Assembly: GCA_030041985.1 (NCBI GenBank)
Contig: JASIAM010000304.1
Coordinates: 1 to 35,446 of the forward strand
Origin: Bryobacteraceae bacterium
Lineage (GTDB): Bacteria > Acidobacteriota > Terriglobia > Bryobacterales > Bryobacteraceae
Length of the DNA stretch: 35,446 bases
Direction: 5' to 3'
Part shown: positions 966-19,551 of the stretch, piece by piece
How the letters are laid out: every line of letters begins with the position of its first letter
Numbering within the stretch: the stretch's first letter is position 1
The notes under the pieces: generated by a model
Told to the model about the DNA's origin: nothing
Seen by the model: only the letters and a program-made list of their open reading frames with translations
Databases searched by the model: none
Program-made: the position numbers and the translations under genes

Positions 966-1070
966 GCCGGGTGCAGTGACCGGCCGCTGCCTCACTTGTG
1001 CGTTTTTCAACATCGCTCCGCTGGATTCCATACCCGCGGCGCTATCATTGGCAAGAAGATCCGTACTCCT

Positions 1071-4000
1071 ATGCCTGCGCAACCCACTTCGACTAAGTCA
1101 GCTTCTTCGCGTGCGCGTGCCCACGCTAATGGTCACCAGCCCCCCGACGCCCTGGACACGGGCCTGTTGTTGCGAACTCTGGTAGCTTTCCAGAAAGGCG
1201 ATTTCTCCGTTCGTATGCCGGTCGACCAGACTGGTGTGCCTGGCAAAATCGCGGACACTCTGAACGCCATCTTCGAAATGAATGACCGCATGCGCGAAGA
1301 GTTCGGCCGGATCAGCAACGCGGTCGGCAAGGAAGGCCGCATCACGCAGCGGGCTTCCATTGGCGCCAGCGCTGGCGGTTGGGCCGATTGTGTCGATTCC
1401 GTAAATGAGCTGATTGGCGACCTGGTACGGCCCTCGATCGAAGTCGCCCGTGTGATCGGCGCGGTCGCCGAGGGTGACCTTTCGCAAACCATGACCCTCG
1501 AAGTGGACGATCGCGCTCTGAAGGGCGAGTTCCTCCACACAGCCCGCGTCGTAAACACCATGGTGGAGCAGCTTAACTCGTTCGCCAATGAAGTCACTCG
1601 CGTGGCGCGCGAAGTAGGCAGCGAAGGCAAACTGGGCGGGCAGGCCGACGTGAAAGGCGTAGCTGGAGTCTGGAAAGATCTGACTGACAGCGTTAACTTC
1701 ATGGCCGCCAATCTCACTACCCAGGTGCGTAACATCGCCGAAGTATCCACGGCCATCGCCAATGGTGATCTTTCGAAGAAGATCACTGTCAATGTGCAGG
1801 GCGAGATTCTGGAACTCAAGAATACCATCAACACCATGGTCGACCAGTTGAACGCGTTTGCGGGCGAAGTTACTCGCGTGGCGCGCGAGGTCGGCACCGA
1901 AGGTAAGCTGGGCGGACAGGCTGATGTGCGCGGCGTAGGCGGCGTGTGGAAGGATCTCACCGATAACGTCAACCTGATGGCCGGCAATCTTACAGCGCAA
2001 GTGCGTAATATCGCCGATGTGACCACTGCGGTAGCCAAGGGCGATCTCTCCCGCAAAATTACCGTGGACGTCCGTGGTGAAATTCTGGAGCTCAAGAACA
2101 CCATCAACGTCATGGTGGACCAGCTCAACGGTTTCGCCAGCGAAGTGACTCGCGTGGCGCGCGAAGTCGGCACCGAAGGTAAGTTAGGCGGCCAAGCCGA
2201 TGTAAAAGGTGTCGCGGGTGTATGGAAGGACCTTACTGACTCGATCAACTCCATGACCGGCAATCTTACCGCTCAGGTGCGTAACATCGCTGACGTCACC
2301 ACCGCGGTAGCTACCGGTGATCTTTCGAAGAAAATTACCGTCAATGTGCAAGGCGAAATTCTGGAACTGAAGAACACCATCAACACCATGGTGGACCAGC
2401 TCTCCTCGTTTGCCTCGGAAGTTACGCGCGTGGCCAAAGAGGTAGGTACCGAGGGCAAACTCGGTGGACAGGCCAACGTACCCGGCGTAGCGGGCACCTG
2501 GAAAGACCTTACCGACTCCGTGAACGGCATGGCTGGCAACCTCACCAATCAGGTCCGCAATATTGCCGACGTGGCAACAGCCGTTGCCAAAGGCGACCTT
2601 TCTACCAAGATCACAGTCACTGCCCGCGGCGAAATTCTGGAGTTGAAAAACACCCTCAACATCATGGTGGACCAGCTCAATTCCTTCGCCTCGGAGGTGA
2701 CGCGCGTGGCCCGCGAAGTCGGCACCGAGGGCAAGCTGGGCGGACAGGCGGATGTGAAGGGAGTGGCCGGAGTGTGGCGCGATCTTACCGAATCGGTCAA
2801 CTCCATGGCTTCTAACCTCACAGCCCAGGTGCGCAACATCGCCGACGTGACCACGGCTGTGGCCCGCGGGGACCTCAGCCGCAAAATTACCGTGGACGTG
2901 CGCGGGGAAATCCTTGAGCTGAAAAACACCGTCAACACCATGGTCGATCAGCTCAACAGCTTCGCGAGCGAAGTCACTCGGGTAGCGCGCGAAGTAGGTA
3001 GCGAAGGCAAGTTGGGCGGACAGGCCAGCGTGCCGGGTGTAGCCGGTGTGTGGAAAGATCTCACCGACAACGTCAACTTCATGGCCGCCAACCTCACTAC
3101 CCAGGTACGTAACATCGCCGAAGTGACTACCGCCGTCGCCAAAGGCGACCTCACAACCAAGATCTCGGTGGATGCCCGTGGCGAAATTCTGGAGCTAAAG
3201 AACACCATCAACGTGATGGTCGATCAGCTTAGTTCTTTCGCTTCGGAAGTGACGCGCGTAGCGCGCGAAGTCGGAACCGAAGGTAAATTGGGCGGACAGG
3301 CCGATGTGCGCGGCGTGGCGGGCACGTGGAAGGACCTTACGGAATCCGTCAACTCCATGGCTTCCAACCTTACCGCCCAGGTGCGCAACATCGCTGACGT
3401 GACTACGGCAGTCGCTCGCGGCGATCTCTCCCGCAAAATCACTGTCGATGTGCGCGGCGAAATTCTGGCGCTGAAGAACACCATCAACGTAATGGTGGAC
3501 CAGCTCAACGGCTTCGCTTCGGAAGTCACTCGCGTGGCCAAAGAAGTTGGCACCGAAGGCAAACTCGGCGGACAGGCCGATGTAAAGGGCGTGGCGGGTG
3601 TATGGCGCGATCTTACCGAATCTGTCAACTCCATGGCCTCCAACCTCACTGCCCAGGTGCGCAACATCGCCGATGTCACTACCGCCGTCGCTAAGGGCGA
3701 TCTGTCCCGCAAAATCACAGTAGACGTGCGCGGCGAAATTCTGGCCCTCAAAGATACCATCAACGTCATGGTCGATCAGCTTTCGTCGTTCGCCTCGGAA
3801 GTCACCCGCGTGGCCAAGGAAGTCGGAACCGAAGGCAAGCTCGGCGGACAAGCCAATGTGCCCGGAGTAGCGGGTGTATGGAAAGAGTTAACCGAGTCGG
3901 TCAACTCCATGGCTTCCAATCTCACGAACCAGGTGCGCAATATCGCCGACGTCACCACGGCTGTCGCGCGCGGCGATCTCAGCCGCAAAATCACCGTAGA

Positions 4001-7000
4001 CGTCCGCGGTGAAATTCTCTCGCTCAAAGACACCATCAACACGATGGTCGATCAGCTCAACAGTTTTGCGAGTGAAGTAACACGCGTAGCGCGCGAGGTC
4101 GGTACCGAAGGCAAGCTGGGTGGGCAGGCCGAAGTAAAGGGCGTCGCCGGCGTCTGGAAGGACTTGACCGAGAACGTCAACTCCATGGCCTCGAACCTCA
4201 CGGCTCAGGTGCGCAACATCGCCGACGTCACCACGGCTGTTGCTAAGGGCGATCTCTCCCGCAAAATCACAGTAGACGTGCGCGGTGAGATTCTGGCCCT
4301 CAAAGACACCATCAACGTCATGGTGGATCAGCTTTCATCGTTTGCCTCGGAAGTGACTCGCGTGGCGCGCGAAGTCGGCACCGAAGGCAAGCTTGGCGGT
4401 CAGGCTAACGTACCCGGTGTCGCTGGCACATGGAAAGAGCTGACGGAGTCAGTCAACTCCATGGCCTCGAACCTTACCAACCAGGTTCGTAACATTGCCG
4501 AGGTGACCACCGCGGTCGCCCGTGGCGATCTCTCGCGAAAGATCACAGTAGACGTCCGCGGCGAAATTCTCTCGCTCAAAGACACCATCAACACCATGGT
4601 GGATCAGCTCTCCTCGTTTGCCTCGGAAGTGACCCGTGTGGCGCGCGAAGTCGGCACGGAGGGCAAACTCGGCGGCCAGGCTGATGTGAAGGGCGTCGCC
4701 GGTGTATGGCGCGATCTTACCGAATCGGTCAACTCCATGGCCTCGAACCTTACCGCCCAGGTACGCAACATCGCCGACGTCACCACCGCTGTTGCCAAGG
4801 GCGATCTTTCGCGCAAGATCACAGTAGACGTGCGCGGAGAGATTCTGGAGCTGAAAAACACCATCAATACCATGGTCGATCAGCTCAGCTCTTTCTCTTC
4901 GGAAGTGACTCGCGTGGCGCGTGAAGTTGGCACCGAAGGCAAGCTGGGCGGCCAAGCCGATGTCTATGGTGTTGCCGGTACCTGGAAAGACCTGACGGAG
5001 TCAGTCAACTCCATGGCCTCGAACCTTACCAATCAGGTTCGTAACATCGCCCAGGTTACCACGGCCGTTGCCATGGGTGATCTCTCCCGCAAGATCACAG
5101 TAGATGTCCGCGGCGAAATTCTGGAGCTGAAAAATACCATCAACACCATGGTCGATCAGCTCAATAGCTTCGCGAGCGAAGTGACTCGTGTGGCGCGCGA
5201 AGTCGGTACCGAAGGTAAGCTCGGCGGCCAGGCGGAAGTGAGAGGTGTCGCTGGCGTCTGGAAAGATCTCACGGATAACGTCAATATCATGGCGGCGAAT
5301 CTTACCACGCAGGTTCGCGGTATCGCCAAAGTAGTTACTGCAGTCGCCAATGGCGATCTAAAACGCAAGTTGGTTCTGGAAACCAAGGGAGAAATTGCCG
5401 AACTGGCCGACACGATCAACGGCATGATCGATACTCTGGCCACCTTTGCCGACCAGGTTACCAGTGTCGCCCGCGAGGTCGGTATTGAAGGTAAGTTAGG
5501 CGGGCAGGCCCGCGTCCCCGGCGCCGCCGGTATCTGGCGAGATTTGACCGACAATGTTAATCAGCTTGCCGCTAATCTTACGACTCAGGTCCGCGCCATC
5601 GCCGACGTGGCCACCTCGGTCACCAGCGGCGATTTAACCCGCTCTATCGCTGTCGAAGCGCAAGGAGAAGTCGCTGCCCTCAAGGACAATATCAACCAGA
5701 TGATCGGTACTCTGGCGGAAACCACCCGCCAGAATAAAGACCAGGATTGGCTCAAAACTAACATTGCAAAATTTACGGGAATGCTGCAGGGCCAGCGCAA
5801 TCTTATGGCCGTGGCGCAGCTTCTGCTCTCGGAATTAGCGCCGGTGGTGGGCGCCCACCTCGGCACCTTTTACATGGCCGAGACTTCAGAGAACGAAACC
5901 GTGCTGCGCCTCCTCTCCGCTTTTGGATTGGACGGCGCTGCGGCGCCTGAAAATTACAAAATCGGTCAGTCGCTCATTGGCCAGTGCGCGCGGGACAAAG
6001 CTCGCATACTCATTACCAACGTCCCCAAGGACTACCTGCGAGTGAATTCGAGCCTCGGCGAAGCCGCGCCTGTCAGTATCGTACTACTGCCTGTACTGTT
6101 CGAAGGCGAGGCGAAGGCGGTCGTCGAACTGGCCTCTTTCCAGTCGTTCAACGATGTCCACCTCGCTTTCCTCGATCAGCTCACTCAGTCCATCGGCATC
6201 GTGCTCAACACCATCGCCGCTACCATGCGCACCGAGGAGCTTCTGAAGCAGTCTCAGGCGTTGGCGTTGCAGTTGCAAAAGACCAACCTCGAACTCGAAG
6301 AGAAAGCGCAACTCCTTGCGGAGCAGAAGACCGAGGTCGAAACCAAGAACCGCGAAGTCGAACAAGCCAAAGCCGCTCTTGAAGAGAAGGCCGAGCAGCT
6401 CGCGCTCACTTCCAAGTACAAAAGTGAGTTCCTGGCCAATATGAGTCATGAGCTGCGTACCCCGCTCAATAACTTATTGATCCTCGCCAAAATGCTGGCG
6501 GAAAACTCCGAGCGCAACCTCTCGCCCAAGCAGGTCAAGTATGCCGAAACAATTCATACTTCCGGAACCGACCTGCTGGCTCTGATCAATGACATTCTCG
6601 ATCTCAGCAAAATCGAATCCGGCAAAATGGATGTGGAAGTGGGCAGCGTGCGCTTCAATGAGCTGCAGGATTATTGCGCGCGCACCTTCCGCCACGTGGC
6701 CGATGGGAAAGGCCTCGAATTCGCCATCGATGTCGATCCCAAGCTGCCCGATTCCATTCACACGGATGCCAAGCGGCTTCAGCAGGTGCTCAAAAACCTG
6801 CTCTCGAATGCTTTGAAATTCACCGCACAAGGCTATGTCAAACTGCGCATCGAGCGCGCGGGAGAAGGCTGGCGGCCCTCTCATCCGGTGCTGAGCCGTG
6901 CCAAGACAGTGGTGGCGTTCAGCGTCATCGATACCGGCATCGGCATTCCCAAAGAAAAGCAGAAGATCATCTTCGAAGCGTTCCAGCAGGCTGATGGCAC

Positions 7001-9839
7001 CACCAGCCGCAAGTACGGCGGGACGGGGCTGGGGCTTTCCATTAGCCGCGAATTAGCGCGCTTATTGGGCGGCGAAATCGCTCTCGAAAGCGCGCCCGGA
7101 GCTGGCAGCACATTCACGCTGTATCTGCCGCAAACCTATCTCGGCGCGGTGGTGCAGCCGAAGACCGAGAGCCAAGCGCCGATCAGCGCCGTCGAAACCG
7201 TTCCGCAGGAGGCCCGCATCGACCTGCTTTTGCCCCCGGCCAAACCCAAACCGGCCACGGTTCTCTCGGACGAAGAACTCGCCGAAATGATCGATGATGA
7301 CCGCAATAATGTTCAATCGGGTGATGCGATTCTGCTGATCATTGAGGACGATCCCACCTTCGCCCGCATCCTTCTCGACATGGCCCACGAGCGCGATCTG
7401 AAGGCCCTTGTTGCCTTCCGCGGCAACACCGCGCTGAGCCTGGCGCGGGAATTCAAGCCTGCCGCCATTACGCTCGACATTCTTCTTCCCGATATGGTGG
7501 GCTGGAGTATTCTCGATCGCCTCAAGCACGACCCGGCCACCCGCCACATCCCCGTGCACATCATCTCCGGCGATGAGAACCGGCGGCGCAGTCTCGGCCT
7601 CGGCGCCATGACTCACCTTGAAAAATCCCTGACCAAGGACAGTCTCGAACGAGCGTTCGATTTCATTGGTGAAACTGCGCGCCGCAAGTCTCGCCGGCTG
7701 CTCATTCTTGCCGGCAACGAAGCGGAAGCTGATGCTATCCGCATGGCGGCGGGCGGCGCCGACTTGGAGATTGTGCAGGCCTCCACCGAAGCCGAAGCCT
7801 TGGCCCTCATCGGCCGTCAGAATGTCAATGGCATCGCCATGACGCTGCAGCTTTCCGATGCCAGCGCGCCTTCCTTTATTGAAGCCCTGCAAAAACAGGC
7901 ACTGCCCCACGTGCCTCCCGTAATTGTTTTCGCCGGCGAGGGCTTGTCTGATTCCGATGCCCGCGAAATTCGCCGCCTGGCGCGTTCCAGCGTGGTCCGC
8001 TACGCCGGTTCGTTCGAGCGGTTGTTGGATGAAAGTGTGCTATTGCTCCACCGCAATGAAGCGGATCTGTCGGATGGGCAGCGCAGCTTGCTGGCCGAAC
8101 TGCGCCAGAAGGATCTCGTTCTGGCGGGCCGCAAAGTGCTCGTGGTAGACGATGACCTGCGCAACATTTTCGCGCTTACCAGTCTGCTCGAAGAACACAA
8201 CATTCACGTGATGCACGCCGAAAATGGCCGCGCAGGCATCGAATTGTTGCGTCAGAATCCGGATGTTCACGCGGTGCTCATGGATATCATGATGCCCGAG
8301 ATGGATGGCTACGAAACCATGCGCGCCATAAGGCAGATTCCGCAATTCAGCAGCCTGCCCATCATCGCGCTCACTGCTAAGGCCATGAAAGGCGACCGCG
8401 AGAAATGCCTCGAAGCGGGGGCCAGTGACTATGTGACTAAGCCAGTCGATCTCGATCATCTCTTCAGCGTCTTACGGGTTTGGATCAGTTCCGGCGATGA
8501 AGCGCTCACCGCCTCTCTCGACTCTCCGGCTTCCGGCTCCGATGTTACGGGCGCGCGCCGCAGAACCATCTCCGGCCCTATCTCCGACGAGATGAACGAG
8601 ATGATCGATGACGACCGCAATTCCATTCACCCCGGTGATCCGGTTGTTCTCATCGTGGAAGATGACCCTACCTTCGCTCGCATCCTCGTCGATGCGGCCC
8701 ACGAACGCAATCTCAAAGCAGTGGTGGCTTTGCGCGGCAACACCGCTCTCAACCTGGCCCGCGAATTCAAGCCCGAAGCCGTCACGCTCGATATCGGCCT
8801 GCCCGATATGATCGGTTGGACCATTCTGGACCGCCTGAAGCACGACGCTCTGACCCGCCATATCCCGGTTCACATCATCTCCGGCGATGAGGATCGCCGC
8901 CGTGGCCTCGCACTGGGCGCTATGACTTATCTCGAGAAATCCTTAAGTAGAGAGGGCCTCTCGCAGGTGTTCAGTGTCATCGGAGACGCGGCCCAGCGGC
9001 GCATTCGCAAGCTGCTGGTGGTCAGCGATTCCGCAGATCAATTCGAAACCATTCGCACCGCGGTGGCCGGAGTGGATATCGAAATTCTGGGAGCCAACAG
9101 TGTTTCCGAAGCTTTGGCGGTGGTCACTCAGCAATACCTTGATGGATTGGCTATCTCTTACCGTCTCGAGGGCCAGAGGGCGGCCCAACTGATTCAGGAA
9201 CTGCAGCGCCGTGTCACTCCCTATACTCCGCCCGTAATCGTTTACGGCCAGGGGTTGACTGATGCCGATGCCCACGAAATCGGCGGGCTCTCGCGCACCA
9301 GCACCGTCCGTTATGCGCCTTCGCTCGAACGTCTGCTCGAGGAAACCGTGCTGCTGTTGCACCGTGCGGAGACGGATTTATCGGATGCGCAGCGCAATGT
9401 GCTGAAAGTGCTGCGCCAGAGCGATCGTACGCTGGCCGGCCGCAAAGTACTGGTGGTGGATGACGATTTGCGAAACATTTTCGCCCTAACCAGCCTGCTC
9501 GAAGAACATAACCTCAACGTGATTCACGCGGAAAACGGGCGCGCCGGCATTGAGGCCTTGCAGGCGCAGGACGATGTCGATGCCGTCCTCATGGATATCA
9601 TGATGCCGGAAATGGATGGCCTCGAAACCATGCGCGCCATCCGTCAGATCCCCAAATTCCGCAGACTGCCCATCATCGCACTCACCGCGAAAGCCATGAA
9701 AGGCGACCGCGAAAAATGTCTCGACGCCGGCGCGAGTGACTACGTAACCAAACCGGTCGATCTGGAACACCTGTTCAGTGTGCTCCGCGTCTGGGTTGCC
9801 AAATCCGATGCGCCCGGCAGGTTCACCACATCGAATTAA
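1071..9839 (+). CDS. Giant poly-HAMP hybrid sensor histidine kinase with multiple receivers
   Basis: A 2,922-residue cytosolic hybrid kinase; no signal peptide or TM segment is seen. In order: a divergent HAMP-like start (about 20-180); fifteen 92-residue HAMP units (181-1560); GAF (about 1577-1720); a coiled coil (1720-1784); HisKA with His1793 in MSHELRTP; HATPase (about 1895-2020; [21 protein letters not shown]). Then two copies of a receiver, degenerate receiver, receiver module. Acceptor Asps are at 2136, 2405, 2574 and 2842. The HAMP units resemble those of fungal group III kinases (Nik1/Os-1 type), which respond to osmotic stress and have about 5-6 repeats. ATG 1071 is preferred over the in-frame TTG at 996, because residues 1-25 of the longer form look non-coding. 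Signal and output are unknown. The array could act as a long relay or a scaffold (inference). Confidence 0.93.
1611..5750 (+). repeat. 15 in-frame tandem 276-bp repeats encoding 92-aa HAMP units
   Basis: Fifteen units each begin with an E-V-G-x-E-G-K-L-G-G-Q-A motif. The first starts at 1611 and the fifteenth at 5475. The distance is 3,864 nt, exactly 14 x 276, so no indel separates them. Each unit carries W-K/R-D/E-L-T, a Q-V-R-x-I-A helix, a G-D-L turn and a G-E-I/V-x-x-L segment, consistent with a canonical HAMP plus a linker HAMP per unit. Units 1, 6, 14 and 15 have MAANL or LAANL where most inner units have MASNL. A more divergent unit precedes the array (GKEG motif from about 1326), offset by 97 and not 92 residues. 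Confidence 0.93.
7287..9794 (+). repeat. Tandem duplication of a 438-residue receiver / pseudoreceiver / receiver module
   Basis: Copy 1 (7287-8483) and copy 2 (8601-9794) both begin with MIDDDRN and end with VLRVW. The offset is 1,314 nt (438 codons) except for one codon lost in copy 2. Each copy holds a receiver with IEDDP or VEDDP and TLDI..PDM. Next comes a middle domain lacking the acidic pair and the acceptor Asp. Last is a second receiver with [25 protein letters not shown] and TKPVD. The duplication is diverged but clear at protein level. Confidence 0.9.
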
Positions 9840-11481: not shown

Positions 11482-11918
11482 CTGTAATTTGTTCCCGCCT
11501 CGTTTTGATTGAAGATAATCCCGCCGATGTCCTCCTGATTCGTGAGGCTATCCGCGAACGAGGGCTGGCTGTAGATTTGATTTCTTACCCGGACGGCCCC
11601 GAAGCTATTTCCGGTCTGGACGATCCCAGCAGTCCGCTTCCCGATGCCATTCTCATGGACCTGAATCTGCCCAAAGGCGAAGGCATGAATGTGATCAAAA
11701 CGCTCCGCGCCTCCGAGCGTCTGCGCAATGTGCCGCTCGCCATTCTCACTTCGTCCCAATCTCCGCGCGACCTCGAGCAGGCCCAGCGGCTCCGCGTGAA
11801 GTCGTACATTCACAAGCCATCTACTCTCGATGAGTTCCTGACTACCGTGGGCAATGCGGTCTCAGAACTGCTCGGTAAGGCATCTCGTTCCGGCGGAGTT
11901 GGCGCGCCACTGCTATAG
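11478..11918 (+). CDS. Single-domain response regulator (Rcp1/CheY-like)
   Basis: A 146-residue stand-alone receiver. The acidic pocket is IEDNPAD, the acceptor is Asp61 in ILMDLNLPKGEG, the beta4 strand is LAILTSS, and the beta5 Lys is in YIHKPST. No output domain follows. The ATG overlaps the stop of the upstream kinase as ATGA, so the two are probably translationally coupled and form a kinase-regulator pair. The Asp-Leu-Asn-Leu-Pro form of the active site is typical of regulators paired with phytochrome-like kinases. The downstream target is unknown; single-domain receivers act by protein contact or as phosphate shuttles. Confidence 0.9.
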   Translation: MTVICSRLVLIEDNPADVLLIREAIRERGLAVDLISYPDGPEAISGLDDPSSPLPDAILMDLNLPKGEGMNVIKTLRASERLRNVPLAILTSSQSPRDLEQAQRLRVKSYIHKPSTLDEFLTTVGNAVSELLGKASRSGGVGAPLL

Positions 11919-11967
11919 ATCTCAAGATGAAACTCGCGAAGCTGGTGATCCGATAACCACTGAAGAG

Positions 11968-13854
11968 ATGTTCGAGCGGGCCCTGGCCCATCTTCAGGCC
12001 GGGCGCCTGGCCGATGCCGCCCAAGTCTATCAGAAGATTCTGGAGCGCAAGCCCCGTGACGCCGATGCGATTTATTTCCTCGGAATCATCGCGCATCAGG
12101 CTGGCAAGCACAAAGAAGCGATCGAGCGTCTGGAGCGCGCTCTCGAAATCGTGCCCAATCAGGAGCGCTGCTATAACGTCCTGGGATTGTCGCAGATGGC
12201 TCTGGGGCGATCTGGCGAAGCAGAAGCCAGCCTGCGCCGCGCGATCGCTCTCAGCTCTCGCAGCGTGGCCGCGCATAGTAATCTCTGCGTTTTACTAAAA
12301 AGCCAGGACCGCATCCCGGAAGCGCTTCCCATCTATGAAAGGGTCCTTGCCCTCGATCCGCGCAATGCCGAATTGCACAGTGAGTTTGGCGATGCGCTCC
12401 AAACTCTTGGCCAGGTACCGCGTGCTATTGCGGCGTATGCCAAGGCGATCGAAATCGATCCCGGCCTCACGCGGGCCTGGTATGCCGCGGGATGTGCGGA
12501 GAACGCGCGCCGCGAGTATGTGTCGGCCTGTGGATGTTTTGAGAAAGCCTTGGCACAGATTCCGGATTGGCCGCAAGCCCTCCATAACTTCGGCCAGGCT
12601 CTCTATCGGCTCGGTGAGACTGATCGATCCCTTAATCTGTTCCGGCAGGCCGCGCGCGCGCCCGAACCGCAACTTCCGCTCGCGGCGATCGCTTCCGCCA
12701 TCCCGGCCAGCCCGTCCGCCACCAATCAGTCAATCCTCCAAGCTCGCCAGGCGTTCGCCCGAACATTACCGCCTCGCCGGGCTTTGGCGCCGCGCGCAAG
12801 GAACGATCGCTTGCGCGTCGGCTATCTCTCATCATTTTTCGCAGATCGCAACTGGATGAAGCCTGTTTGGGGCTTGATCAATCATCACGGCCACGAACAA
12901 TTCGATATACATCTGTTCTCCGATGGCCCGCAATCCGCCATTCAATTCGGTTATCAGAGCCGGGAAATCTTCCACGACATCAGCGCGCTTTCTAATGAAG
13001 ATGCCGCCTCTCTGATCCAGCGAACCGGCATCGATCTGCTGATCGACCTGAACGGCTACAGCGCCATGCGGCGTCTCCCGCTGATTGCGCTGCACCCTGC
13101 GCCGGTAGTCGCGGCATGGTTCAACATGTTCGCTACTTCGGGCATGGATGGTTATGACTATCTGATCGGCGACGAAACTGTGATCCCGCCCCCCGAAGAA
13201 CAGTTCTACACAGAGAAAATTTTGCGCGTGGAAGAGAGCTATCTCACCTTTGAAGTAAACTACCCCGTGCCTGAGGTCAGTCCCGCTCCATACCTGTCGA
13301 ATGGGTTCATCACCTTCGGCTGCCTGGCTCCGCTCTACAAGATCAATGCGGGTGTGATCGCTGCATGGAACCGGATTCTGGAGCAGGTACCGGACAGTAA
13401 GCTACTGCTTAAAAATGCACAGCTTGGTTCCTCGAAAAACCAACTGTATGTACAAAAGCTATTCCAAGATTCGAGCAGAGTCTTACTCGAAGGGCCTGCT
13501 GAACACTTCGAGTATTTAGAAACTTATAACCGGATCGATATAGCTCTGGATACATTTCCTTATAATGGCGGCACAACCACGTCCGAGGCGATCTGGCAAG
13601 GTGTCCCCGTAATTACGTTCACAGGCGATCGTTGGGTGTCGCGAACCAGCGCTTCGATTCTGCGCGCCGCGGGCTTGGAGGACTTTGTCGCACTTGATCC
13701 GGAGGGCTACATTTCTCGAGCAATTAGCATCTCTCCCGAAGCTTTCGCCGGTCTCCGCTCCAGCATGCGATCCCGCCTCCAAACTTCGCCCGTCTACAGC
13801 ACCAGCGAATTCGCCCGGCGTATGGAGCGGCTCTACCAGGACATTTGCCGTTGA
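11968..13854 (+). CDS. TPR-repeat O-GlcNAc-transferase-like glycosyltransferase (GT41/SPINDLY family)
   Basis: A 628-residue protein: about six to seven TPR repeats (1-235), a short linker, then a GT41-type catalytic region (about 285-628). Family signatures seen are LIDLNGYS, FGCLAPLYKINAGV, DTFPYNGGTTTSEA and GVPVITFTGDRWVSR, which match the sugar-nucleotide-binding half of O-GlcNAc transferases. No signal peptide, so it is cytosolic. Family members move GlcNAc, fucose or similar sugars onto Ser/Thr of proteins. The substrate here cannot be told. An in-frame ATG at 11854 would add 38 residues but overlap the upstream regulator by 65 nt; ATG 11968 is preferred because the TPR begins at once. 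Neither start has a clear Shine-Dalgarno. Confidence 0.85.
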   Translation: MFERALAHLQAGRLADAAQVYQKILERKPRDADAIYFLGIIAHQAGKHKEAIERLERALEIVPNQERCYNVLGLSQMALGRSGEAEASLRRAIALSSRSVAAHSNLCVLLKSQDRIPEALPIYERVLALDPRNAELHSEFGDALQTLGQVPRAIAAYAKAIEIDPGLTRAWYAAGCAENARREYVSACGCFEKALAQIPDWPQALHNFGQALYRLGETDRSLNLFRQAARAPEPQLPLAAIASAIPASPSATNQSILQARQAFARTLPPRRALAPRARNDRLRVGYLSSFFADRNWMKPVWGLINHHGHEQFDIHLFSDGPQSAIQFGYQSREIFHDISALSNEDAASLIQRTGIDLLIDLNGYSAMRRLPLIALHPAPVVAAWFNMFATSGMDGYDYLIGDETVIPPPEEQFYTEKILRVEESYLTFEVNYPVPEVSPAPYLSNGFITFGCLAPLYKINAGVIAAWNRILEQVPDSKLLLKNAQLGSSKNQLYVQKLFQDSSRVLLEGPAEHFEYLETYNRIDIALDTFPYNGGTTTSEAIWQGVPVITFTGDRWVSRTSASILRAAGLEDFVALDPEGYISRAISISPEAFAGLRSSMRSRLQTSPVYSTSEFARRMERLYQDICR

Positions 13855-14012
13855 CTCCTCTCAATGTAGCTCCTTCCACTATATTTCTTTCTCGCGTGTC
13901 TGTATAAACACCGCCAGCCAGTGACGGATCGTTGCTGTCAAGGGTTCCTGTTGCCTCATTGATATACCGCTGATATTCGGATGTAACACACAGCCGCTAC
14001 ACTTCCGTTTAA

Positions 14013-15017
14013 ATGAAACGAACGCTGTGTTTTGTCGTTGCCGCGCTGGGAGTGTGCGCCCATGCAGCGCAACTGGATTTTCTGAATCACAATCATCCCG
14101 TACTCGACGCACACAATTGTTATCCCTACGACGGCAAATGGACCGATCGTCTGGATCGCGCGCTCAGCACGGGCTTCCCCATTGGCATTGAGCAGGACAT
14201 CGCATGGGGCATCGATCCAGTGACAGGCAAGGGCCGCCCGGTTGTGACCCACACGCCCAAGACCACAGGCACTGAGCCCACATTGAAGGACCACTTCTTT
14301 GAACACGTTCGGCCCATCGTCGAAAAAGCTCTGAAAGAAAACGACCGTGCCCACTGGCCGCTGATTATTCTGCATTTCGATTTCAAGTCGGTCGATCCGG
14401 TTGTGCTACACGCGGTCTGGGATCTGCTCGGCGAATATCAGGATTGGATCACCACAGCGCCCCCAACCGATGACCCCCACGAGCTTGCACCCTTCGATCC
14501 GAAGCCGCTGCTCGTACTTACCGAAGACGCCGATATTCAGGACAAGATCTTCTTCCGCGATCTCCCCAAAGGCACGCGCTTACGGTTGTTCGGCTCCATG
14601 CCCACCGCGCGCATCGAAGCCTCTTCGCGTCAGGAGCGCCAGCATCTTGCCGCCACGCTTCCTCCGGAAAAGTTGCTCGTGGGCCGCCCCACCAACTTTC
14701 GCCGCTGGTGGAACAACTCATGGGACGAAGTCGAGGAAGGCGGCCAGACGAAAGCCGGCGAATGGACTCTTGCCACGGAAGCGCGTCTTCGCTCGCTCGT
14801 GAATTACGCCCATAGTCTCGGCTACTGGATTCGCTTCTACACGCTCGATGGCTTTGCGCCCGCTGACGGGCAGGGCTGGGGAGCGGGTTACAACTTCGGC
14901 AGTCCGGAGCGTGTTCGCGCACGTTGGAAAGCGGCCATCGATGCCGGAGTGGATCTCATCGCCACCGACCAGTACGAAGATCTACGTACCTTCATGCAAG
15001 AAAACGGAACAAAATGA
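14013..15017 (+). CDS. Secreted PLC/GDPD-like phosphodiesterase
   Basis: A 334-residue protein with a signal peptide (MKRTLCFVVAALGVCAHA, cleaved near 18). The rest fits the PLC-like TIM-barrel phosphodiesterase superfamily: an early catalytic pair His34-Asn35 in LDAHNCYPY, metal ligands Glu60 and Asp62 in GIEQDIAW, a second His80 in VVTHTP, the strand ILHFDFKS, and the late-barrel motif AGVDLIATDQYEDL. PI-PLC and glycerophosphodiester phosphodiesterases share this fold and split phosphodiester bonds of phospholipid head groups. I cannot tell which substrate class applies. The stop overlaps the ATG of the TonB receptor by 4 nt. The 158-bp gap upstream probably holds the operon promoter, but I see no convincing -35/-10 pair. 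Confidence 0.75.
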   Translation: MKRTLCFVVAALGVCAHAAQLDFLNHNHPVLDAHNCYPYDGKWTDRLDRALSTGFPIGIEQDIAWGIDPVTGKGRPVVTHTPKTTGTEPTLKDHFFEHVRPIVEKALKENDRAHWPLIILHFDFKSVDPVVLHAVWDLLGEYQDWITTAPPTDDPHELAPFDPKPLLVLTEDADIQDKIFFRDLPKGTRLRLFGSMPTARIEASSRQERQHLAATLPPEKLLVGRPTNFRRWWNNSWDEVEEGGQTKAGEWTLATEARLRSLVNYAHSLGYWIRFYTLDGFAPADGQGWGAGYNFGSPERVRARWKAAIDAGVDLIATDQYEDLRTFMQENGTK

Positions 15018-18000
15018 TCAAACGCCTCCTCTTTGCACTTCTAACGGCCACCTGCGCTCTCCTGGCGCAAACCGATTCCGGCTCGATCCGCGTGTTCGTG
15101 GCCGATTCTTCCGGCGCAGCCCTTTCCGATGCAATGCTGCGCCTGTCGAACACCGCGACCGGCATCGTGACCTCACGATCCACGGACGCGGATGGGTATG
15201 CCACCTTCGGTCCTATTTCAGGCGGCAGCTATACGCTCGACGTGGACAAAACCGGCTTCGGCGCCACACACGTTACGGATCTTTCTCTCGATGTCAACGA
15301 GAATAAGTTAGTGCGCGTTGCCTTGAAGGTCGCGGAAGTTTCCTCGACCATTGACGTCTCTGCGGCAGCCAACACCGTGCAATCCGAACAAGCTTCGCTC
15401 GGCCAGGTGGTCCAGGGCACTGTCGCTGTAGATCTGCCCCTCGCGGCTCGCCGCTACGCTCAGCTCGCACTGCTCGTGCCCGGAGCCACCGACAGCACGC
15501 TCGATAACACCACCACGCGCGGCGTGGGCTGGTTCACGGTCAATGGAAATTACCAGACGCAGAATAACTTTATCCTGGATGGAGTCGATAACAACCAGGG
15601 GACGAACAACGCACAGTCGCTGTCTTCACAGGTCGTAGCTCCGTCGCCGGATGCGATCGCCGAATTCAAGGTACAGACCAACAGCTACTCGGCCGAATTC
15701 GGCCGCTCCGCCGGCGCGGTTGTGAACGTGGTTCTCAAGTCAGGCACTAACCAGTTGCATGGCTCTGCCTGGTACTACAACCGCGATGCCCTGTTTGCCG
15801 CGAACGCGTGGGCCTCGAATCTCGCCGGAGCACCGAAATCCAATCTTTCGTGGAATCAGTTTGGCGGCACAGTCGGCGGTCCGATCGTAAAAAACAAAGT
15901 CTTTTACTTCGCCGACTACGAAGGCTTCCGCGAGGACTACAGTACACCATTCATCGAGACCGTTCCCACGGCGGCCGAACATCAGGGCATCTTCTATCGC
16001 ACGATCGACTATCCGGGCACGAAAACCCCTATCCCCAATAACACCATTCCGGATTCGCTCATGGATCCGATGGGCGTCAAGCTGATGGCGCTTTATCCTG
16101 CCGCGAATATCCTCGGCACCATCTCTTCCAGCGGTCAAACAATCAACAACTATTCGATCCAGGCGCCTAGCACAGAGCGGGATCACAAAGGCGACATCAA
16201 GGGCGATTACAATATCACCAACCAAGACGTCCTGTCGTTGCGCTTTAGCTACCTGCGCCAGGATATTTACAATGGCGCGATCTTCCCCGGCATCGCAGAC
16301 GGCGTAGGTAACCAGGGCGCTCAGTTCAATACCAACCAAAGCTACGGCGGAAGCTGGACCCGCATCATTACTCCTTCGATGATCAATGCTTTCCGCTTTG
16401 GCTATACCAGTACCAACGCCAATTTCAGCAACGCTTCCGTCAACGGCGAAGGAGCTGCCGCATTCGGCTTCCAGATTCCGAGCGTGGCCCTTCTGCCGTC
16501 CAATGGAGGCCTTCCCCTGATTAATCCAACCGGCTACAACAACCTTGGTACCCGTGGTTTCCGGCCCCAGTATCAGAAACCAAATCTCTACCAGGTGCTG
16601 GATAATCTCTCCTTGGTTCGCGGCACGCACAACATCCGCATCGGCTTCGAGACACGCCAGAAGAGCAACACGAACCTGAACTCCAACCGCACCGTGCCGG
16701 AGTACGATTTCAACGGCAACTTCACAGGCGAGGCTCTGGCCGACATGCTAACCGGTCAAGTCTATAACCTGACCGCCAACACCCAGGAGATTGAAACCAT
16801 CCTGCAGAAGGCCTATGCCGCCTACGTTCAGGACGACTGGAAAGTCGCGCAGAACCTGACGATAAATATGGGACTGCGCTGGGAATATGAAACGCCCTTC
16901 TACGGCGCCAACCCGTACCGGAACATCGGCTTTAATTTCCAGACCGGACAACTCATCTACAGCAACAACCCGGCCGACTATATGGTCCACCCCGACCACC
17001 GCGATTTCGGTCCGCGCTTCGGCCTCGCCTGGCAGGCTGTCCCCAATAAGCTGGTCTTGCGAGGAGGCTATGGCATCTTCTACTCGGGCGAAGACGTCTC
17101 GGGATCGGACGTCGATCTCGCCGCCAATCCCCCGCAGTTGATCTCCGTCAACCTGACAGAAGTCGGCAGCGGTCCCCCACCGCTAACGCTCTCGCAGCCG
17201 GTGCCGTCCAACATTTTCGATACTTATAACACCACCACAATCTCGCTCACTGCGCGCCAGCCGGATTACCACGCCGCGCTGATCGAGCAGTTCAACATCG
17301 CCCTGCAATACCAGTTGCCGCTCCAATCCACAGTTGAGTTCGCCTATGTCGGCAACCGTGGCTATCGTGAGTTTGCCGAAAACGCCGGCAATCAGGTTCC
17401 GTTCGGACTGGATGGCACTGTGGCCGCCAATCGCCCCTATCCTGATTGGAACAGCATCACGGTGGGATCCCAAGTGGCACGCTCCTGGTATAACGCGTTT
17501 CAATTCAAGTACGACAAGCGGTTGACAAAAGGCTGGTATGCGTTGTTCTCCTATACTTTCGCCAGCGCGATCGACGAAGCCGGCGCTTGGGGCGCCAACA
17601 CACAGCCGCAGATCGCCGCAGACTTCAATCTGGAGCAAGGCCCACAAGCACAGACGCCGCGGCACAGCAGCCTCGTCTTCTCAGATGTATATGAATTGCC
17701 CTTCGGCCGCGGCCGCTCTTTCGGAACGAGTTGGAATCGCGTCACCAATGCCATCCTCGGCGGTTGGCGTCTTGCGAATATCCTTACCTGGCACGACGGG
17801 TTGCCCCTCAACGTCACCTTGTCCTCTTCGGGTGTGAACCCAGCCAACAATCAGAATTACAAGTTCCTCTCGACCAACGGCGGAACGCTCCGACCGAATC
17901 TCGTAGGGAATCCGCAGACTGGCATCAGCCCCGAAGTCAACCGCAATGATTTTCTCAATACAGCCGGCTTCCAGGTACAGACACTGAACACACCCGGCGA

Positions 18001-18238
18001 CGCGAGCCGCGACGTCGCCCTCAGCCCCGGCTTCTTCAATCTGGATCTGAGCCTTGCCAAGCAGGCTTCCTTGACCGAGCGCATGGGCATGGAAGTGCGC
18101 TTCGAGGCTTTCAATTCGTTGAATCACACCAATTTCGGAAATCCGGGCACAACCTTCGGCACCTCCAGCTTTGGTGTGATCACGTCAACGGTTGGCAATA
18201 ACCGCATCGTTCAGATGGCAATCCGTCTGCGATTCTGA
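15014..18238 (+). CDS. TonB-dependent outer-membrane receptor with N-terminal carboxypeptidase-regulatory-like domain
   Basis: A 1,074-residue outer-membrane protein. Signal peptide 1-18 (MIKRLLFALLTATCALLA), then a CarboxypepD_reg-like Ig fold (about 22-105), a plug (about 120-240; DLPLAARRYAQLALLVPG, NNFILDGVDNNQGTN, YSAEFGRSAGAVVNVV) and a beta-barrel to the end. The last residue is Phe in MAIRLRF, the usual outer-membrane assembly signal. This is the Oar-like receptor type that is greatly expanded in Acidobacteriota. Substrates are rarely known. Here the position between two secreted phosphate-releasing enzymes suggests an organophosphate ligand or a product of it (inference). ATG 15014 forms ATGA with the upstream stop. 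A longer in-frame opening exists but would replace the signal peptide. The stop overlaps the phosphatase start by 1 nt. Confidence 0.9.
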   Translation: MIKRLLFALLTATCALLAQTDSGSIRVFVADSSGAALSDAMLRLSNTATGIVTSRSTDADGYATFGPISGGSYTLDVDKTGFGATHVTDLSLDVNENKLVRVALKVAEVSSTIDVSAAANTVQSEQASLGQVVQGTVAVDLPLAARRYAQLALLVPGATDSTLDNTTTRGVGWFTVNGNYQTQNNFILDGVDNNQGTNNAQSLSSQVVAPSPDAIAEFKVQTNSYSAEFGRSAGAVVNVVLKSGTNQLHGSAWYYNRDALFAANAWASNLAGAPKSNLSWNQFGGTVGGPIVKNKVFYFADYEGFREDYSTPFIETVPTAAEHQGIFYRTIDYPGTKTPIPNNTIPDSLMDPMGVKLMALYPAANILGTISSSGQTINNYSIQAPSTERDHKGDIKGDYNITNQDVLSLRFSYLRQDIYNGAIFPGIADGVGNQGAQFNTNQSYGGSWTRIITPSMINAFRFGYTSTNANFSNASVNGEGAAAFGFQIPSVALLPSNGGLPLINPTGYNNLGTRGFRPQYQKPNLYQVLDNLSLVRGTHNIRIGFETRQKSNTNLNSNRTVPEYDFNGNFTGEALADMLTGQVYNLTANTQEIETILQKAYAAYVQDDWKVAQNLTINMGLRWEYETPFYGANPYRNIGFNFQTGQLIYSNNPADYMVHPDHRDFGPRFGLAWQAVPNKLVLRGGYGIFYSGEDVSGSDVDLAANPPQLISVNLTEVGSGPPPLTLSQPVPSNIFDTYNTTTISLTARQPDYHAALIEQFNIALQYQLPLQSTVEFAYVGNRGYREFAENAGNQVPFGLDGTVAANRPYPDWNSITVGSQVARSWYNAFQFKYDKRLTKGWYALFSYTFASAIDEAGAWGANTQPQIAADFNLEQGPQAQTPRHSSLVFSDVYELPFGRGRSFGTSWNRVTNAILGGWRLANILTWHDGLPLNVTLSSSGVNPANNQNYKFLSTNGGTLRPNLVGNPQTGISPEVNRNDFLNTAGFQVQTLNTPGDASRDVALSPGFFNLDLSLAKQASLTERMGMEVRFEAFNSLNHTNFGNPGTTFGTSSFGVITSTVGNNRIVQMAIRLRF

Positions 18239-19551
18239 TGCGATCGATTCTCTTCTTTCTTTTATGTGGCGCGCTGTCGCTCCCGCCGCAGTTCGCTTTC
18301 GCGCAGGACACTGCGACCAATGACCCGGCGAACGAACTTCGCGCAGTAGTCATCCTGACTCGCCACGGTGTACGGGCGCCGCTCTCGAGCGAGATCCGTA
18401 GCAGTGTCTACAATGCGCAGCCGTGGCCGGGGTGGTCCGTGCCTTCGGGCGTGCTGACTGAGCACGGCACGGCCGCCCTGCGTCTGATGGGCGCGTGGTA
18501 TCGGGCGCGCTATGGGTGCCGGCCGCACACGGTGTATGCCGAAGCCAACAGTGCCCAGCGCACCATCGCCTCGGCGAAAGCTCTCATCGAAGGACTCGGT
18601 ATGGGCTGTGAAGCCAATGTCATCACCAGCCCCGCCGGACAGTCTAATCCTCTGTTCGGGCCAGCTCTCGCGGCCGAAGCCGACCCGGCAAAACTCGCCA
18701 ACGCCATCCAGGGCCGCCTGGGTGCCCATCCCGATTGGTGGACCCATTCGTTCCGGGAGCCGCTCGAAGAGATGCGCCACGTGCTGCTCGACTGTACAGA
18801 ACCGGATTGCGGCCACACGAAGAAGAGTCTCCTCACCGCGCCCGCTATCGTCGCTCCGGCCACGCGCGGGCTGGTGAACGTGGACGGTCCCGTGGCCATG
18901 GGGGCCGATTTCGCCGAACATTTCCTGCTCCAGTACATCGAAGGCCTGCCTATGGAGAGCGTCGGCTGGGGACGCGTCTCGCGTCCGGCGCTCGACCGGC
19001 TCATGGAAATGAATACGCGATACCACGATTTCGTGCTGCGCACACCCTACTATGCGCAGATCGCCGCTTCCGATCTTGCTTGGCGCATCGCTGCAACCCT
19101 GCGCCAGGCTGCTTCCGGCAAAGAGACCACAGGCGCGCTGGGTGACACGCGCAGCCGCATCGTGATTTTGGCCGGCCACGATTCCAATCTCACATGGTTG
19201 GGTGGCCTGCTGCGGCTCGACTGGCTCCTCCCCGACGAGACCTTCAACGCCACTCCGCCAGGGAGCGGGTTAGTCTTCGAGCTTCGGCGCAATCGCACCA
19301 CGGGCGAATTCCGCGTGCGCGCCCTATTCGCAAGCCAGACTCTGGATCAGATTCGATACCTGAAACCACTCACGGGCGCCGAGCAACCCGCACTGGTCCC
19401 CGTCTTCATTCCGGGCTGCAGCGGTCGAGACCCCGATTATTCCTGCCCGGTCGAGGATTTCAGCCGCGTGGTCGAAGCGGCGGTCGACCCGCGCTTCGTG
19501 GAGCCTCGCTTCCGAGGCAAATCGGGCCGGCGCGAGCCGGGAGCTAGGTAG
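18238..19551 (+). CDS. Secreted histidine acid phosphatase (phytase/AppA-like)
   Basis: A 437-residue protein with a signal peptide (1-22, ending AFA). The catalytic signature RHGVRAP is at 42-48 with nucleophile His43. The proton-donor pair is His314-Asp315 in LAGHDSNLTW. Both are hallmarks of the two-domain histidine acid phosphatases, which include AppA phytase and glucose-1-phosphatase. The length is close to AppA. Cysteines at several sites suggest periplasmic disulphides. Such enzymes release phosphate from phytate, sugar phosphates or other monoesters; which applies is not visible. The start ATG overlaps the receptor stop (TGATG), so translation is likely coupled. This ends a three-gene operon; a convergent gene stops 10 nt downstream. 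Confidence 0.88.
   Translation: MRSILFFLLCGALSLPPQFAFAQDTATNDPANELRAVVILTRHGVRAPLSSEIRSSVYNAQPWPGWSVPSGVLTEHGTAALRLMGAWYRARYGCRPHTVYAEANSAQRTIASAKALIEGLGMGCEANVITSPAGQSNPLFGPALAAEADPAKLANAIQGRLGAHPDWWTHSFREPLEEMRHVLLDCTEPDCGHTKKSLLTAPAIVAPATRGLVNVDGPVAMGADFAEHFLLQYIEGLPMESVGWGRVSRPALDRLMEMNTRYHDFVLRTPYYAQIAASDLAWRIAATLRQAASGKETTGALGDTRSRIVILAGHDSNLTWLGGLLRLDWLLPDETFNATPPGSGLVFELRRNRTTGEFRVRALFASQTLDQIRYLKPLTGAEQPALVPVFIPGCSGRDPDYSCPVEDFSRVVEAAVDPRFVEPRFRGKSGRREPGAR

Follow-up and report, generated by a model that had tools for sequence, protein, structure and literature searches.

What does a string of three genes do in which an outer-membrane receptor lies between a candidate phosphodiesterase and a phosphatase? 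Such a string is present in a Bryobacteraceae bacterium of the phylum Acidobacteriota, on a contig of 35,446 nucleotides (GenBank JASIAM010000304.1, forward strand; C287 in our survey) that was analysed at its full length and is referred to here as the window. The genome to which it belongs comprises 6.0 Mb in 355 contigs and is 98% complete. An earlier note on this DNA had proposed an operon for the scavenging of organophosphates. We assign a probability of about 0.7 to the reading that the three genes form an operon for organic-phosphorus scavenging that acts in two steps, on a diester and then on the resulting monoester.

Results

Gene order and junctions

The first gene (14013-15017, + strand, an ORF of 334 amino acids) encodes a PLC/GDPD-like putative phosphodiesterase of an uncurated family, hereafter the PLC-like protein. 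It is followed by a gene for a TonB-dependent receptor (15014-18238, +; 1074 amino acids counted from the ATG at 15014, the mechanical ORF opening at a TTG at 14924) and by a gene for a histidine acid phosphatase of the His_Phos_2 family, or HAP (18238-19551, +; 437 amino acids). At the first junction (aaaATGAtc) the receptor ATG at 15014 overlaps the TGA at 15015-15017, and at the second (tcTGATGcg) the TGA at 18236-18238 shares its last base with the ATG at 18238, so that the three reading frames with ATGA and TGATG overlaps described earlier are exact to the base. All three proteins open with signal-peptide-like stretches, as judged by eye without a predictor, in agreement with the claim that they are exported.

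The window's gene string comprises these three genes only, none of which matches a SusD family, and the gene after the phosphatase is on the opposite strand and matches Acyl_transf_3 slightly under the cut-off. Directly upstream of the operon a gene (11854-13854, +) encodes a TPR protein that also carries an O-GlcNAc-transferase-like domain of glycosyltransferase family 41; it was considered as an operon member and set aside given a gap of 158 bases and given that in L030, the other locus with the window's gene order, it has no match next to the family. A hybrid histidine kinase of 2947 amino acids is encoded at 996-9839 (+), with 15 HAMP stretches, GAF, HisKA and HATPase domains and 4 receiver stretches, the poly-HAMP array being unusually long.

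Predicted fold and active site of the PLC-like protein

Sequence searches gave little for the PLC-like protein. No Pfam family matched at its cut-off (the sole weak match was DUF2256, E 0.02), NCBIfam gave zero matches at E <= 1, and the PDB gave chance-level matches by sequence (best E 0.05) and none at E <= 10 by family profile. When 46 family members were scanned against Pfam the weak matches were scattered and included GDPD, with none at the GDPD cut-off: PF03009 (GDPD) matched weakly in 1/46 members (best E 0.008) and PF13653 (GDPD_2) in 3/46 (best E 0.0091), neither of them in the window, and PF16670 (Ca-dependent PI-PLC) was not one of the 18 families for which at least one of the 46 members gave a match at E <= 0.5.

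An alignment of 46 rows (the window and 45 of the 46 loci obtained from named genomes, L070 being excluded) revealed the conserved blocks DAHNCYPY and IEQD, a histidine about 18 residues later, and HFDFK. From this alignment AlphaFold (AF2) predicted a TIM barrel of the GDPD/PI-PLC type (pLDDT 93.1, pTM 0.92). The best Foldseek matches of the model were glycerophosphodiester phosphodiesterases (E 3e-6), barrels of other kinds, dihydropteroate synthase for example, came lower in the list, and VIA-align placed GlpQ (1t8q; Z 17.4, 234 residues, 3.3 A) level with the Ca-dependent PI-PLC (3h4w; Z 17.3, 244 residues, 3.7 A). GDPD and PI-PLC entries thus head the structural list for what is a predicted, not a solved, structure.

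Over the 116 rows of the locus set described below, gaps excluded, H16, E42 and D44 are each conserved in 113/113 sequences, H62 in 114/114 and D105 in 113/114, the lone substitution among these five key sites being D105N in L174; N17 and K107 are likewise near-invariant. A GDPD-derived enzyme has, in the available part of its description, a pair of catalytic histidines and three acidic residues that bind the metal, in the arrangement H...ExD...H...D (PMC3815110). The residues of the PLC-like family agree with this arrangement in their order and spacing, a correspondence that does not come from a superposition of coordinates. Given the predicted fold and conserved residues that match the catalytic histidines and acidic ligands in order and spacing, the PLC-like protein, a member of an uncurated family, very probably acts as a metal-dependent phosphodiesterase. 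The earlier description of the first enzyme as PLC/GDPD-like is borne out to the extent that the model and the conserved pattern point to this superfamily.

The receptor and the histidine acid phosphatase

The protein encoded at 15014-18238 matched PF25183 (OMP_b-brl_4 type) at 707.5 bits and, in its N-terminal part, PF13620 (CarboxypepD_reg) at 47.5 bits, both above cut-off. PF00593 was matched at 28.8 bits (cut-off 27) and the Plug family PF07715 at 18.3, under its cut-off of 23.9. A TonB receptor is thus located between the two enzymes, as had been claimed. Elsewhere in the window's genome, two receptor genes contain an in-frame stop (G000:C256:30071-32707 and G000:C212:4561-7008).

The third protein (18238-19551) matched PF00328 at 73.6 bits (cut-off 23.6), and its best PDB match was 4ars, a Hafnia phytase titled histidine acid phosphatase (E 9.6e-46), with phytases next. 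R42, H43, G44, V45, R46 and P48 of the RHGVRAP motif and H314 and D315 of the GHDSN motif are invariant in the 7 aligned sequences including the window. With the RHGVRxP and HD motifs intact, the protein has the signature expected of an enzyme acting on phosphate monoesters, as previously suggested. The label "phytase-like" holds for the family; it is less apt for the substrate. Neither the AppA equivalog model of NCBIfam (193.3 bits, cut-off 585) nor the glucose-1-phosphatase model (150.9 bits, cut-off 425) was reached, and phytate is not a safe guess because LSSE follows RHGVRAP where 4ars has TKMT.

Distribution of the family

The PLC-like family was found in 26/396 genomes of the phylum by a single-query search and in 83/399 genomes of the class by a profile search. 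The locus set combined the surroundings from this genome survey with 46 loci with PLC-like relatives from a search of named genomes; fragments in G422, G439, G517 and G619:C454 were left out, and the broken PLC frames of L070 and L197 were kept unmended. These 143 loci formed 123 groups at 97% identity, and after 7 with less than 1.2 kb of flank had been dropped, 116 non-redundant loci remained. Nearly all are from Acidobacteriota, including the named relatives Granulicella mallensis (L054), which carries TonB-PLC, and Silvibacterium bohemicum (L056), which carries TonB-PLC-HAP. From outside the phylum the search of named genomes gave a Hydrogenedentes contig (L073) and a contig that bears the title Caulobacter and may be mislabelled (L046, Caulobacter sp. 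S45); the PLC-like gene of the latter groups among acidobacterial ones, as would be seen after a label or assembly error or a transfer. A shorter PLC-like subfamily (L191-L200), in which the profile match is broken near positions 195-214, is present in several genomes that belong to the same family as the window; its strings contain no receptor or phosphatase, except in L197, which is of another type with a broken frame.

Linkage to receptors and phosphatases

Strings were defined as genes on the same strand with gaps of at most 300 bases, genes were longest-ORF calls, and the partner profiles were built from members seen at these same loci (for the calcineurin type from one sequence). The string of the PLC-like gene contained a receptor in 36/116 loci (the receptor calls in L064, L144 and L040 are weak or partial, at 87, 54 and 160 bits), a phosphatase or phosphatase-like hydrolase in 29/116, both in 21/116 and neither in 72/116. 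Within strings, receptor and hydrolase were associated in a test that takes no account of relatedness (odds ratio 12.6, p 1e-7); when TonB and phosphatase were compared over independent pairs, significance was not reached (median p 0.06).

Four kinds of hydrolase, unrelated to one another, serve as partners: CehA/McbA-type PHP hydrolases (15 loci), HAP (9), PhoX (3) and calcineurin-like proteins (2). More than half of the partners (15 of 29) are therefore phosphatases by superfamily only, CehA/McbA enzymes being best known for carbamate hydrolysis. In L093, L094 and L058 this type matched the curated model NF038032 (234.5 to 252 bits, against a cut-off of 80); L058 had no match in the PDB by sequence at E <= 0.1, and a structural model of the type, from 5 sequences, reached a pLDDT of 72. 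The PhoX partners (L090, L091 and L092) matched PF05787 at 244.7 to 252.5 bits (cut-off 24). In L103 PF00149 was matched at 35 bits (cut-off 21.5), and in the PDB sequence search its C-terminal part matched purple acid phosphatase (E 2e-6).

In three loci the PLC-like and phosphatase-like domains are fused in one protein, twice with a CehA-type (L093:2994-5471 and L094:4897-7215) and once with a calcineurin-like domain (L103:6020-8050), and in each case a receptor gene precedes the fusion by 53 to 170 bases. Because phosphatase-like domains are fused to the PLC-like domain, it is suggested that the two cuts occur in succession, and such fusions in nature give a hint of the reaction that would follow the diester cut. 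Close junctions between the PLC-like gene and the receptor also recur, with the receptor ORF starting -3 to 5 bases from the end of the PLC-like gene in L033, L040, L042, L061 and L159 (with partial receptors in L033 and L040); in L030 the PLC-like gene ends at 9008 and the receptor match begins at 9005.

Conservation of the trio itself in relatives is limited. The linkage to a receptor or a phosphatase-like protein recurs; the exact order PLC-TonB-HAP occurs in 2/116 loci (the window and L030) and the trio in any order in 7/116. The order TonB-PLC-HAP was seen in five loci and TonB-CehA-PLC in ten.

At the level of genomes, HAP was found in 43/399 genomes of the class and co-occurred with the PLC-like family in 21 (odds ratio 4.5, p 1e-5, relatedness ignored). 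In 6/21 of these genomes (G000, G061, G225, G313, G695 and G711) the two genes are in one string, an arrangement in which a random gene pair among some thousands would almost never be found, and in 15/21 HAP is elsewhere. For the other partners we searched genomes that were picked partly because a partner had already been seen there. Eight such genomes contained 17 CehA-type genes above cut-off, 8 of which adjoin or are fused to a PLC-like gene. The sole PhoX match in G285, G301 and G355 is the PLC neighbour; among the other five genomes searched for PhoX, G293 had two matches outside the string and four had none.

The simplest alternative is that the genes are adjacent by chance in genomes rich in TonB receptors, and such genomes are indeed rich in them, given at least 57 to 60 PF25183 matches in each of three genomes (114 to 162 candidates each). 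If the background is taken as 3 to 8 percent, which is an assumed and not a measured value, a receptor rate of 36/116 corresponds to a binomial p of 2e-26 to 6e-13 with relatedness ignored. Chance adjacency was rejected on this rate, and it also fits poorly with overlapping frames, fusions and the clade-specific receptors described below; we consider it very improbable.

Several other neighbours have no evident link to phosphorus: a GH18-type gene in L085 (and likewise beside the family in L043), a fatty-acid desaturase in L036 (and in L034), a SIS protein and an EPSP synthase in L063, and, encoded on the opposite strand, an M14 peptidase in L049. Proteins of the sulfatase/alkaline-phosphatase superfamily are encoded in the PLC strings of L159 (1193-2968) and L088 (4669-6135) and are possibly a fifth kind of partner. 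DUF6454 proteins adjoin PLC-TonB pairs in L061 (11936-12670) and L041 (3682-4473). A conserved protein that looks regulator-like by eye and has no Pfam match (L060:2716-4218, - strand) has relatives in 13 loci, some of one species, and in loci of the Terriglobales type its gene frequently precedes that of the receptor by a few hundred bases.

Exchange of the hydrolase partner

Quick LG+G4 trees were made for the PLC-like proteins (114 rows, 2 of the 116 being too short) and for the receptors (69 rows, of which 30 are string-linked receptors and 20 are high-scoring comparison receptors, ten each from G000 and G061); 43/111 and 40/66 inner branches, respectively, were starred. With "none" counted as a state, the PLC tree implies a minimum of 21 changes of partner. 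L055 (CehA) and L057 (HAP) are sisters with a support of 99, and L058 and L074 (both CehA) are nested among HAP loci with supports of 85 to 94. On the receptor tree five groups contain all 30 string-linked receptors. The largest is a clade with 21 rows (support 96), 18 of them string-linked; for the remaining 3 (L050, L145 and L070) the adjacent PLC gene is on the opposite strand or its frame is broken. The window's clade has 6 rows (support 100), all string-linked, and none of the 20 other receptors of G000 and G061 is inside either clade. Since receptor clades are string-linked while HAP and CehA swap between near relatives, the receptor and the phosphodiesterase tend to travel together and the hydrolase is exchanged. 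HAP would have joined PLC-receptor pairs on no fewer than two occasions, which differ in receptor and gene order.

This pattern bears on the possibility that the PLC-like enzyme acts on the cell's own envelope lipids or their headgroups, the receptor being a bystander or a neighbour that shares only a regulator. That 72/116 loci have neither receptor nor phosphatase in the string, and that a desaturase adjoins in L034 and L036, would be expected if this were so; a receptor lineage that tracks the PLC gene and phosphatase-like domains fused to the PLC-like domain would not, and we regard such a role as quite improbable.

Regulation and other phosphorus genes

The upstream intergenic region (13855-14012, +), where a search for a Pho box had been recommended, was scanned with the consensus CTGTCATNNNNCTGTCAT. 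The best site had 9/14 matches, and shuffled sequences averaged 8.9, with 206/300 as good, so that Pho-box-like sites are at chance level. There was no signal in 43 upstream regions either (mean 9.05 against 8.82). The window's genome had no PhoX and no PhoD match; it has one ordinary GDPD gene, the PF03009 matches being on C316, away from the operon.

The Pho-box result is what would be expected if the same enzymes served to gain carbon (inositol, glycerol, choline or a sugar), the phosphatase merely freeing the alcohol. Receptors of the OMP_b-brl_4 kind are linked to many carbon sources in Acidobacteriota, and the GH18-type genes in L043 and L085 point the same way. Weighing against a gain of carbon, the three-gene string of the window contains no gene for polyol or sugar breakdown, and four hydrolase families serve as partners, as if phosphate release were the constant. 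We consider this alternative unlikely, and phosphorus scavenging is retained as the preferred reading.

Discussion

The scavenging model is built on gene order, frame overlaps, protein families, conserved catalytic residues and recurrent linkage, all of which were observed, and on a predicted fold. For activity, step order, the location of each step, substrate and purpose we infer the following. The TonB receptor would carry a molecule with a phosphodiester bond, or what an initial extracellular cut had made of it, across the outer membrane. The PLC-like enzyme, as a divergent member of the GDPD/PI-PLC superfamily, would cleave the diester, and the histidine acid phosphatase, or another phosphatase in relatives, would remove the phosphate from the resulting monoester. 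The freed phosphate, and perhaps the alcohol too, would then be used. The predicted fold, the HAP, the recurrent linkage with four hydrolase kinds and the fusions argue for the earlier proposal of an organophosphate-scavenging operon. It is weakened by the rarity of the exact trio and the Pho box that was not found, and we also count against it the 72/116 loci with no partner and the 15/21 genomes with HAP elsewhere.

A broader and more tentative reading, to which we would give somewhat under even odds, is that Acidobacteriota own a modular outer-membrane system for organic phosphorus and that this system belongs to the phosphatase capacity, "as-yet-unidentified", that has been postulated for acid soils. 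Its steady pair would be an unrecognised phosphodiesterase family and its own receptor lineages, with unrelated phosphatases slotted in or fused. According to the available part of a soil survey, the shares of bacteria with PhoX, PhoD and PhoA genes drop in soils of low pH to 3, 7 and 1 percent, respectively, which raised the question of the phosphorus source of bacteria without these enzymes (PMC5552915). The window's genome, with this operon and no PhoX or PhoD match, may be such a case. In the same part of the survey, other known phosphodiesterases and phytases, and the dominant phyla, Acidobacteria included, showed no significant change between low and high pH (PMC5552915), and for this reason we offer a link of the operon to acid soil as a hypothesis. 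Since the conserved PLC-like family is under every cut-off in the Pfam and NCBIfam versions used here, it would escape gene surveys of this kind.

Comparison with known systems

The PLC-like protein resembles GlpQ (1t8q) and the Ca-dependent PI-PLC (3h4w) in its predicted fold and in the H / E-x-D / H / D pattern, and differs from them in an identity of 12 to 17% over the aligned part and in having no Pfam match at cut-off. GDPDs carry an HRG motif, whereas the PLC-like family has HN at this place. The phosphatase shares PF00328 and the RHGVRxP and HD motifs with AppA-type phytases and glucose-1-phosphatases; it is under the cut-offs of both models, and has LSSE in place of the TKMT of 4ars.

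The earlier remark that the trio was not known as a described system holds for the exact combination in the literature covered: the titles and abstract openings of open-access papers gave no description of the trio or of the PLC-like family in Acidobacteriota. Systems of this kind are nevertheless described. In the available part of a report on the phosphate utilisation systems (PUS) of Flavobacterium johnsoniae, TonB-type transporters are encoded with phosphodiesterases or phosphatases and induced on phosphate depletion; in PUSI an enzyme of PF16670 and one of PF00149 accompany PusCD1, and a phytase-TBDT pair and TBDTs without a SusD partner are also listed (PMC8115612). Compared with what is given there, the window belongs to another phylum and has no SusD-like gene in its string. 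Its phosphodiesterase family is missed by the PF16670 and GDPD models at cut-off, and its phosphatase is a histidine acid phosphatase that is swapped or fused in relatives. The window likewise co-locates a TonB-type transporter gene with phosphodiesterase and phosphatase genes, and we rate its operon as a candidate PUS-like system built on an uncurated phosphodiesterase family.
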